Assembly: GCA_902806435.1 (NCBI GenBank)
Contig: CADCWO010000166.1
Coordinates: forward strand, 1-44,620
Length of the DNA: 44,620 nt
Direction of reading: 5' to 3'
Source: an uncultured Synechococcales cyanobacterium
GTDB taxonomy: Bacteria; Cyanobacteriota; Cyanobacteriia; Thermosynechococcales; Thermosynechococcaceae
Positions within the stretch are counted from its first letter, which is position 1, and every line of letters begins with the position of its first letter. A program made the position numbers and the translations under genes. A model generated the notes under the pieces. It made no database searches, was not told where the DNA came from, and saw only the letters and a list, made by a program, of their open reading frames with translations. Positions 29,674 to 33,352 of the stretch are shown in pieces.

Positions 29674-29994
29674 TCAACCCTTGCGGGAGGCTTCCCCATC
29701 TCGGCGACCCAGTTCATAAACGCCACAACCAATAGAAGAAATTATACCCAGGCTGATCGCCCAGCTTTGGCCTAGACCAAGCAGCAGAGCGTAGTAGCTC
29801 AAACCACCGAAAATGATAAATGGCACAATACTCACAAGTGATGCCCAGAATTCGTTGCCCTGGAACCAGCGACTAAGCTGCTCTGTCATCCGCTGGTTAG
29901 TGCGGAACAAGCCTAAATAAAAGGCGAGCGCCCATAAACCTGTTCCGCCAATCACCAGAGGTTCAATATTTAACAGTGACAATTCACCATTCAT
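29674..29994 (-). CDS. Small membrane protein, function unknown
   Basis: The 106-residue protein has about three hydrophobic segments: IGGTGLWALAFYLGLF (15-31), ASLVSIVPFIIFGGLSYYAL (51-70) and SWAISLGIISSIGCGVYEL (77-95). It ends RRDGEASRKG. I do not recognise the family; it resembles small cyanobacterial thylakoid or inner-membrane hypotheticals. The ATG at 29992-29994 starts it. It converges with the LpxB-like gene, with stop codons 8 bases apart. Confidence 0.6.
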   Translation of the reverse strand: MNGELSLLNIEPLVIGGTGLWALAFYLGLFRTNQRMTEQLSRWFQGNEFWASLVSIVPFIIFGGLSYYALLLGLGQSWAISLGIISSIGCGVYELGRRDGEASRKG

Positions 29995-30307: not shown

Positions 30308-30772
30308 ATGGTTCAACGTGGTTCTAAGGTAAGAATTCTCCGCCCAGAGTCTTATTGGTTTCTGGATTATGGCGTTGTTTCTTCGATAGATAAAAGTGGA
30401 ATTAGATACCCGGTTGTTGTCCGATTTGACAAGGTGAACTACTCCGGTCTCACTACCAACAACTTTGCCGTCAATGAATTGCAAGAAGTTGCACCACCGC
30501 AGGCTAAAGAAGCAAAACAAGAATCAAAGAAAATAAGTGCCGAAGATAGGAAGAACACCCCGGAAGATAGTTCCAAACGGATGACGGGCAGTGGTGCTCC
30601 AACCAAAAAGGCTGATGCCGGTGGTAAGGTTTCTAAGGATCCAGCTGGGACGACTGCCAAGGGAGCCGCTGGTGCAACTACAGATACCGGGGGTGATGCA
30701 ACAGAGGCCCAGGGCGGACGTGGTAGTGATGTGGTAGTAGGAGATGCGAACCAAGGTACTGAAGGACGCTAA
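30308..30772 (+). CDS. psaE: Photosystem I subunit PsaE with long C-terminal extension
   Basis: PsaE sits on the stromal face of photosystem I and supports ferredoxin docking and cyclic electron flow. Residues 1-66 are the SH3-like core: [57 protein letters not shown]. Normal cyanobacterial PsaE ends within about 10 residues of this point (70-76 in total). Here the frame continues 88 residues without a stop. First comes a Lys/Glu-rich part ([17 protein letters not shown]), then a Gly/Thr/Ala-rich part ([17 protein letters not shown]) ending NQGTEGR. The tail is low-complexity and probably disordered. It is in frame with normal codon use, so a sequencing artefact is unlikely. The mutM start is 26 bases downstream, on the same strand. 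Confidence 0.93.
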
Positions 30773-30798: not shown

Positions 30799-31686
30799 GT
30801 GCCAGAACTGCCTGAAGTAGAAACTGTACGCCGGGGACTGGATGAAGCCACCTCAGGTCAAATCATTATGGGTGGGGATGTACTGCTAGTTCGTACCATT
30901 GCCCACCCTGTTTCCATAGGTGATTTTCTGCTCGGCATTAAATCAGCCTTAATTGTCCGCTGGCACCGTCGTGGTAAATATCTGCTGGCACAGCTTGCCA
31001 GACCCAGCCAAAGTCAATCTGCTACAACTGATGCGGGCTGGCTGGGAGTCCACTTGCGGATGACAGGTCAGCTATTGTGGCTGAATGTGGCTGAACCGCT
31101 GTCAAAACACACCCGCGTCCGCTTGTTTTTCAACCAAGACCAGGAATTACGGTTTGTTGATCAGCGAACCTTTGGCCAGATGTGGTGGGTTCCGCCAGGA
31201 GAAACTTTAGAGCAGATAATCTCCGGGCTACAGCGACTTGGACCTGAACCATTTGGCGAAGGGTTCACAGTTGAGTATCTGGCTCAACGGCTTCGTACTC
31301 GTCGTGGCCCCATTAAAAGTGCCCTACTTGATCAGGCTCTAGTAGCAGGAGTGGGAAATATTTATGCCGACGAAGCGCTATTTATGGGTGGCATCCATCC
31401 TGAAACAGTTTGTGCGGCGCTCAGTCTAGACAAAGTTGAGTTATTGCGCTCAGCAGTAGTTCGGGTATTGGAGACCAGCATCGAGCGAGGCGGAACAACC
31501 TTTAGTAACTTCCTGAGTGTCCAGGGAATTAATGGTAACTACAGTGGTGTTGCTTGGGTCTATAATCGTCGCGGTCAGCCCTGCCGTATTTGTAGCACAC
31601 CGATCCAAAGACTGCGGTTAGCAGGCCGTTCCAGCCATTTTTGCCCACAATGCCAGCCCTACCTGATTGGCAATGGAGTCGGATAG
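30799..31686 (+). CDS. mutM: Formamidopyrimidine-DNA glycosylase MutM (Fpg)
   Basis: The 295-residue base-excision enzyme removes 8-oxoguanine and formamidopyrimidines and nicks the abasic site. The N-terminus PELPEVETVRRGL contains the catalytic Pro and Glu (residues 2 and 3, GTG start at 30799). The conserved HRRGKYLL Lys, MTGQL and HTRVRLFF follow, then the helix-two-turn-helix KSALLDQALVAGVGNIYADE. The C-terminal zinc finger is CRICSTPIQRLRLAGRSSHF followed by CPQC. The length is slightly above E. coli Fpg (269) because of a loop around residues 70-80. Oxidative DNA repair next to a photosystem I gene has been noted in other cyanobacteria, where psaE and mutM are often adjacent. Confidence 0.94.
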   Translation: MPELPEVETVRRGLDEATSGQIIMGGDVLLVRTIAHPVSIGDFLLGIKSALIVRWHRRGKYLLAQLARPSQSQSATTDAGWLGVHLRMTGQLLWLNVAEPLSKHTRVRLFFNQDQELRFVDQRTFGQMWWVPPGETLEQIISGLQRLGPEPFGEGFTVEYLAQRLRTRRGPIKSALLDQALVAGVGNIYADEALFMGGIHPETVCAALSLDKVELLRSAVVRVLETSIERGGTTFSNFLSVQGINGNYSGVAWVYNRRGQPCRICSTPIQRLRLAGRSSHFCPQCQPYLIGNGVG

Positions 31687-31749: not shown

Positions 31750-31977
31750 ATGGCTGTTAAAAAGGGAGATCTAGTGCGGGTAAACCGCGAAAAGTTAGAC
31801 AACAGTGTAGAAGCAATGGCAAGTGATCGCCGCTGGCCGCCTTATCTATTTGAAGGTAAAGGCGAGATTGTTGAGCTGCGGGGTGACTACGCCCAAGTCA
31901 AGTTTTCACGGGTTCCCACACCAAATGTCTGGCTGCGGGTGGACCAACTAGAAGTCGCCAAGGAAGTAGCAAAGTAA
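31750..31977 (+). CDS. ndhO: NAD(P)H-quinone oxidoreductase subunit O (NdhO)
   Basis: The 75-residue protein begins [20 protein letters not shown] and contains [20 protein letters not shown] and [19 protein letters not shown], the NdhO signature. NdhO is a small stromal subunit specific to the photosynthetic NDH-1 complex, which drives cyclic electron flow and respiration in thylakoids. The start ATG at 31750 lies 63 bases after mutM. A possible -10-like TATAGAAT lies just upstream near 31708, so it may have its own promoter. Confidence 0.93.
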
Positions 31978-31978
31978 G

Positions 31979-32467
31979 TTACTGCAAACGCTGATAGCAA
32001 TCAATAGGGGTTACCTTAAAGTTGCAGGTCATGAGTACCGCTGCGATCGGATCTAGAACGACAACTACAGCTTGTGACTCTGGGGCGTAGTCATCAACTT
32101 TGTCGCGAGTTAAGGGTGATAACAAAGAGTTGGCCCAGGGCAATCTACTCCCCGAGTTCGCTTTAATTTGGTGCCTGGCTGTGTAAGTGAAATCAACCTG
32201 GCGCTCAGCTATCAATTCTGTAAGTTGCCGCCCTGCGGTTGTGCCAATTAAAGTGATGACACCACGACCGTGCAGCCTATAAGCTTTGTAGCTGTGAAAG
32301 GCTAAGAAGTACTGGTTAGCCTGCACTACATCCCGGTATCTTGTTGGGATATCTCCAATGACAGCAGCTTCAGGACTAGGGAGCTCCCTGAGGAGCATTA
32401 CATCTTGAGAACGAGCTTTTTCTCGCAACCCTTGGGGAGTCATAAAACCAGTCATGTACTGCCTCAA
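31979..32467 (-). CDS. Hypothetical protein, unrecognised
   Basis: The 162-residue protein has no domain I can name. It is soluble and of mixed helix/strand composition, with FMTPQGLREKARSQDVMLLR near the start, VVQANQYFLAFHSYKAYRLH in the middle and LDPIAAVLMTCNFKVTPIDC at the end. The stop codon is 2 bases from the stop of ndhO, so the two converge tightly. The actual start could be the second or third Met (MTGFM). Codon use looks like that of its neighbours. It is probably real, but of unknown role. Confidence 0.55.
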   Translation of the reverse strand: MRQYMTGFMTPQGLREKARSQDVMLLRELPSPEAAVIGDIPTRYRDVVQANQYFLAFHSYKAYRLHGRGVITLIGTTAGRQLTELIAERQVDFTYTARHQIKANSGSRLPWANSLLSPLTRDKVDDYAPESQAVVVVLDPIAAVLMTCNFKVTPIDCYQRLQ

Positions 32468-33007: not shown

Positions 33008-33352
33008 ATGGCTTACGACCCAACTCCAGAACTAGGGCACCACGACATACCTGTTGACAAGATCAGCTCTACCCACGATGACTTTGCTATAGATTCCCAT
33101 GGGAGGTCGCCTCTAACCTTGGACGAACTCAATCCCCAGCCTTCTAATATTCGATACATTAACGCGATCTCAGATTCACAAAAAGTTCATCGTTGGATGG
33201 TCACGATGGTCAATCGTCAGACCGGTGCAGAGGAGCTACTGGATATTGTGTGTGCGGGTGGCGGCTTCAAAGATATGGCCCAGGAGGTGCGCCGTCACTT
33301 CAACTACGATTGGGAGATCTTCGAGTGGTTTGATCCTGAAGTGCCTTTTTAG
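33008..33352 (+). CDS. Conserved-looking cyanobacterial hypothetical protein
   Basis: The 114-residue soluble protein has a disordered acidic N-terminus (1-45) and a compact remainder. The latter contains NIRYINAISDSQKVHRWMVT, RQTGAEELLDIVCAGGGFKD and VRRHFNYDWEIFEWFDPEVP. The Cys-Ala-Gly-Gly-Gly turn is notable. I do not recognise a named family. The ATG at 33008 follows GAGGTAAC about ten bases upstream. It converges with mnmA. Confidence 0.6.
   Translation: MAYDPTPELGHHDIPVDKISSTHDDFAIDSHGRSPLTLDELNPQPSNIRYINAISDSQKVHRWMVTMVNRQTGAEELLDIVCAGGGFKDMAQEVRRHFNYDWEIFEWFDPEVPF

Follow-up and report, generated by a model that had tools for sequence, protein, structure and literature searches.

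A tail on the photosystem I subunit PsaE is, by its sequence, a fused copy of a small cyanobacterial protein

The photosystem I (PSI) subunit PsaE of an uncultured Synechococcales cyanobacterium carries a long C-terminal tail. Judged by its sequence, this tail is a copy, fused to PsaE, of a small cyanobacterial protein not described before. In other genomes the same protein is encoded as a free, stand-alone product ending in the same C-terminal tag, and the fused and the tagged stand-alone forms near-completely exclude each other. The tail is not mere filler but a conserved module, with purifying selection acting on it. The window analysed here is a contig of 44,620 nucleotides (GenBank assembly GCA_902806435.1, contig CADCWO010000166.1).

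Results

The PsaE of the window has a complete core and a conserved tail

An initial annotation, made from the letters of the window, had described a PsaE core followed by a long extension to residue 154 without a stop, and both the complete core and the open 154-codon frame bear this out (Table 1). The Pfam family PSI_PsaE matches residues 2–61 at 110.7 bits (cut-off 27; E 2.7e-32), and the protein also matches the NCBIfam equivalog NF002745 (101.6 bits, cut-off 88). A single PF02427 match was found in the genome (4.79 Mb, completeness 99.98%), so this PsaE would have to serve PSI. A missed stop codon, named initially among the things that would overturn the observation, or a sequencing error is excluded by the presence of the same tail in Thermosynechococcaceae YX3bin19 and in many other genomes.

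Table 1. Features of the psaE region, in positions of the window
Feature	Position	Strand	Evidence
psaE CDS, 154 aa, PsaE fused to tail	30308..30772	+	open frame without internal stop; Pfam match
PsaE core domain, residues 2–61	30311..30490	+	Pfam PF02427
C-terminal tail, residues 62–154, homologous to stand-alone small proteins	30491..30769	+	profile A1, E 2.1e-9
Conserved mid motif, residues 82–96	30551..30595	+	alignment A1
Lineage-specific expansion, residues ~101–135	30608..30712	+	common only to the window and Thermosynechococcaceae YX3bin19
C-terminal tag, residues 145–154	30740..30769	+	alignment and C-terminal pattern
mutM/fpg (formamidopyrimidine-DNA glycosylase), conserved psaE neighbour	30799..31686	+	psaE-mutM adjacency; context only
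ndhO	31750..31977	+	motif recognised by eye and pattern; synteny; context only

Composition counts agree with the two-part tail described initially. Within residues 67–154, the first half is Lys/Glu-rich (14 of 44 residues are K or E; net charge +5), the second half is Gly/Thr/Ala-rich (26 of 44; net charge −4), and aromatic residues are absent. The tail had also been called low complexity, a label that holds in part only, given its conserved motifs, which include a nearly invariant C-terminal decapeptide. Specifically, the C-terminus in alignment A1 reads G-[SDAT]-[PA]-N-Q-G-T-[ED]-x-R-COOH. Of 111 distinct fused and stand-alone sequences, 110 have Q at −6, 110 have G at −5 and 110 have G at −10, figures that are inflated since the sequences were chosen by this ending. 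The mid motif has the form NTPE...KRMTGSG in the window and [K/Y]QTP-[I/L]-[D/E]-x3-R-[K/R]-TG-x-G elsewhere, typically SGGKQTP-I-x4-R-K-TG-Q-G; its R and the G of TG are invariant in A1, and the T is nearly so. The window protein thus contains both family signatures, TP-x(4,5)-R-x-TG at residues 84–94 and G-x-[PA]-N-Q-G-T-[ED]-x-R-COOH at residues 145–154.

YX3bin19 (locus L005), which belongs to another genus of the same family, has the same tail including the expansion of ~35 residues, followed by the same mutM-ndhO order. Over 88 aligned tail codons of this pair, pN is 0.196 and pS is 0.611 (pN/pS 0.32). In all close pairs listed, pN of the tail is lower than pS, for example 0.007 versus 0.48 for L026/L031.

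The tail is probably disordered, as judged from one deposited structure and one model. Among PDB sequences, the only match to the tail profile is PsaE of 7QCO, so far the one solved PSI whose deposited PsaE carries the tail. This chain has 126 deposited residues, with 61 in the coordinates used by Foldseek, and so small a modelled share argues for disorder. An AlphaFold model of the window PsaE, the disorder check proposed in the initial annotation, gives pLDDT mostly below 50 at residues 68–146, which is weak evidence since the core itself reaches only ~60–77 with 40 sequences. The tail is thus very probably flexible, as expected initially. The paper on the TS-821 PSI mentions PsaE once and the tail not at all, and uses neither "extension" nor "disordered" (PMC8760143).

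The tail is widespread in cyanobacteria

The tail had been treated as an isolated oddity of this genome, which it is not: the PsaE proteins of dozens of cyanobacteria have it. Mapping the tail across cyanobacteria, as had been suggested, we searched 388 genomes of the oxygenic class with profile A1, built from tails alone, and found 131 places in 116 genomes, about half of them within PsaE; 60 genomes have the PsaE fusion. Since the first step of these genome searches is a loose one, weak members may have gone undetected, and absences should be read as provisional. In about 30 complete loci out of the 80 retrieved with the protein as query, PsaE is 117–132 aa long and carries the same tail. 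Neither form was found in many cyanobacteria, including Thermosynechococcus-like relatives and Dolichospermum, and the tail module is therefore not needed for PSI as such. No relatives of the tail were seen on viral contigs or on plasmids, and the literature searched yielded no paper that describes such a PsaE tail or contains its motif.

Other long forms of PsaE were also seen. Anabaena sp. UHCC 0187 (L022:4001-5050) encodes a different one of 350 aa, in which the core is joined to ~280 aa with hydrophobic stretches; this extension has no Pfam match above cut-off. In G072, a further genome of this class, there are two psaE genes, one of them within a 382-codon frame. A third (G070, locus L110) has a 103-aa PsaE with another, Lys/Pro/Asn-rich tail without the tag, together with a stand-alone type 2 gene.

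The same module is encoded as stand-alone proteins

The matches of A1 outside PsaE are separate small ORFs, for example MAEEQKPKSDNQETTPSSSGGYQTTVDESTRKTGDAEKSDAKPSATPEAPGEDGIAGSPNQGTESR. We distinguish three types. Type 2 proteins (~65 aa, range 55–80) are closest to the PsaE tail. Type 3 proteins (~79 aa) are paralogues with the same tag and form one supported clade in the tail tree. Type 4 comprises a few proteins that have little in common with the family beyond the tag. In genomes with fused PsaE there are also small proteins (L208, L209/L321) whose resemblance to the family is essentially limited to the C-terminal VEGSPNQGT[ED]SR. Compared with the stand-alone protein, the fused tail is without the N-terminal part and retains all motifs. 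Three type 2 sequences were scanned, and none gave a Pfam match or a credible NCBIfam match.

A codon pattern for the C-terminus, including the stop, is present in 97 of the 388 genomes, compared with 2 for the reversed control. Its places coincide with those of the family, except for an apparent chance frame of ten residues (G582:C53); the tag is thus a family-specific C-terminal signature. The idea that the tag also occurs on unrelated large proteins was rejected, the pattern being confined to the family apart from that chance frame. The family is restricted to the oxygenic class: in a sample of the phylum, all 47 genomes matched by a stand-alone profile belong to it.

No conserved neighbour of the stand-alone gene was seen, so there is no operon link to photosynthesis. 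Upstream of the type 2 gene of Nostocales, a conserved region carries two GATAGA boxes 34 bp apart, located around −100 and −66 relative to the start codon. The upstream block of such genes (e.g. L175, L172, L301) reads AACAATACTTCCGATAGAGGG...TAGATTTTAGATAGAT, with its two GATAGA boxes ~34 bp apart. GATAGA is present in 34 of 61 type 2 upstream regions, compared with 3.9 expected from shuffles. Among known elements, the J-Box of SigJ (GGGaATACT; PMC6495340) is present in none of the 61 regions, and an HLR1/RpaB-like site gave no convincing match 5' of the stand-alone gene. Having its own conserved upstream region, the stand-alone gene has its own control, while the fusion puts the module under that of psaE. 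Anabaenopsis elenkinii has three type 2 copies (L318, L319, L320), each located in a stretch of at least 4 kb that is repeated with 100% identity.

The fused and a tagged stand-alone form almost never occur together

Of the 388 genomes, the fused form is present in 60 and a tagged type 2 protein in 54. None has both, compared with 8.4 expected if the two were independent and the genomes are counted as unrelated. Families f5, f7 and f15 each contain both states, in different genomes. The window genome has the fused form only. In type 2 genomes whose PsaE was listed, the PsaE frames are too short to hold a fusion. The one clear exception among 50 named genomes is Pleurocapsales LEGE 06147 (L317), which has a fused PsaE and a tagged stand-alone protein; its free copy is very similar to the tail of its own PsaE. 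In genus g4 of the window's family, three genomes have a type 2 copy from which the tag has been lost, and two of the three also have fused PsaE. Type 3 or type 4 coexists with the fusion in 11 genomes.

Locus order and history of the fusion

psaE lies directly 5' of mutM in most loci examined. In the window, mutM separates psaE from ndhO, the start of which is 978 bp past the psaE stop. In most relatives within the window's family, the psaE at the mutM site is a short form with a 7-residue loop insertion, whereas the window core lacks this insertion and, as in YX3bin19, the fused form occupies the mutM site. Genomes with two copies have the short loop form at mutM where this is visible (G388, G296), and a fused, loop-less copy elsewhere. 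The MutM of the window is at least as similar to Nostocales MutM (~69%) as to that of most of its own family (52–68%; YX3bin19 70%). Replacement of the local psaE through transfer or recombination is plausible. Three small ORFs without Pfam match lie near psaE, at 29674-29994 (−), 31979-32467 (−) and 33008-33352 (+); the latter two keep their position in YX3bin19.

In the MutM tree, fused Rivulariaceae branch from within Nostocales whose PsaE is short, a placement suggesting that the fusion arose more than once or was transferred. Their PsaE core ends like the short form of Nostocales and then continues into the tail. This tree needs 9 changes of the fusion label, with weak deep support. The tail tree has 4, of which its starred branches force only 1, and is too short for counting fusions. 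Profile searches found no tail remnants behind short psaE genes, and we therefore rejected the idea that short psaE is a recent truncation of the fused form. In the four neighbourhoods of second fused copies that were inspected by eye, no PSI, FaRLiP or IsiA cluster genes were seen.

Discussion

When a protein occurs fused in some genomes and free in others, this is classically taken as a sign that it works together with its fusion partner, and the pattern found here is strong circumstantial evidence of that kind. Read most simply, the free protein would act at or near the acceptor side of PSI, with its C-terminus recognised by a partner. PsaE lies on the stromal side of PSI, where ferredoxin docks, and contributes to ferredoxin binding (PMC8908432), consistent with the initial placement of the tail on the ferredoxin-docking face. 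As for the function of the fusion, the explanation that we favour, at about even odds, is that it hard-wires a small, soluble, disordered protein with its C-terminal tag to the side of PSI that faces ferredoxin, the tag recruiting a partner. Under such a mechanism, the stand-alone protein would act at or near the PSI acceptor side. The fusion would hold the module on the stromal face beside the ferredoxin/flavodoxin site, with one copy for each PSI, and the flexible tail would present the C-terminal tag to a soluble partner. We hold more tentatively the wider proposal that the family is a trans-acting PSI acceptor-side factor, present in about one third of the sampled oxygenic genomes and fused in more than one lineage, whose tag is read by a dedicated receptor. 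A role of the free protein at PSI, partner binding by the tag and the nature of that partner are inferred here.

Partner binding had been proposed for the tail initially, with ferredoxin, FNR and NDH-1 as candidates. The general part of this claim is reasonable, since the C-terminus shows the conservation of a recognition motif and the tail sequence is also found as a separate protein; for FNR, ferredoxin or NDH-1 specifically nothing was found. That the tail binds one of these three and promotes cyclic electron flow appears improbable, even though PsaE contributes to ferredoxin binding on the acceptor side and, according to a review (PMC8908432), cyclic flow in Synechococcus sp. PCC 7002 has been reported to depend on it. 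The proximity of ndhO, ~1 kb downstream, had been offered as a hint. It does not serve as one, since many Nostocales with a tail-less PsaE share the order psaE-mutM-ndhO, and no evidence that ties the tail specifically to NDH-1 was found. Moreover, species with neither tail form are still expected to run cyclic flow, and the stand-alone proteins are acidic (mean net charge ~−5), unlike a basic ferredoxin-binding surface.

The main rival is an osmoprotectant role, in which the protein is a hydrophilin-like protectant against drought or salt stress that has no specific partner, and PsaE is a mere carrier near PSI or the thylakoid surface. Hydrophilins are defined by more than 6% glycine and a strongly hydrophilic composition, and the window tail (Gly 17%, GRAVY −1.18) and the type 2 proteins (Gly 11%, mean GRAVY −1.5) both fall within this definition. 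The stand-alone form is absent from the freshwater bloom formers Dolichospermum, Aphanizomenon and Chrysosporum and present in many terrestrial, benthic and saline taxa among the 50 named genomes, with habitats read from names and without statistics, and the conserved GATAGA region of Nostocales implies that the type 2 gene is probably inducible. However, composition would suffice for a protectant, which requires neither an invariant C-terminal decapeptide nor the conserved R and TG of the mid motif, and fusion to a PSI subunit would cap its amount at that of PSI; we regard this role as rather unlikely. Slightly less likely still is that the fusion is a by-product, in which a small gene landed behind psaE, lost its start and was tolerated, with the tail cleaved after translation and its function unrelated to PSI. 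The flexible junction would permit cleavage, the tail is not seen in the TS-821 cryo-EM map, and fused copies away from the mutM site are found at various positions, without PSI genes next to them. Against this, at least three families with the stand-alone form also contain fused forms, the tail is without the N-terminal part of the free protein yet retains all motifs, and losses of a harmless passenger should be more frequent.

The subunits of PSI are generally regarded as fully catalogued. The recruitment reading provides a testable candidate for a PSI-associated factor in model organisms of the Nostoc type, with a motif of ten residues, and the tail family accounts for an unremarked 65-residue stretch of a solved PSI structure.

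Compared with other PsaE proteins of cyanobacterial PSI (PF02427, NF002745), that of the window has a complete core with a full-length Pfam match, and its gene lies beside mutM as in most cyanobacteria examined. It differs in having 93 residues past the Pfam domain, while most PsaE proteins end at 66–78 aa. PsaE of the Chroococcidiopsis TS-821 PSI tetramer (7QCO, 126 aa) has the same tail motifs and tagged end, with a linker shorter than that of the window protein and a tail absent from the model. The type 2 proteins of Nostocales and Leptolyngbya-type genomes share the motif order and the C-terminal tag with the PsaE tail. Unlike the tail, they are free proteins of 55–80 aa that begin with an N-terminus of their own; the genes of those in Nostocales also have a separate conserved upstream region. 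Hydrophilins and LEA-like proteins are likewise hydrophilic, glycine-rich and disordered, but neither a position-fixed C-terminal motif nor fusion to a PSI subunit is among their defining features, and the three type 2 proteins scanned gave no Pfam match.
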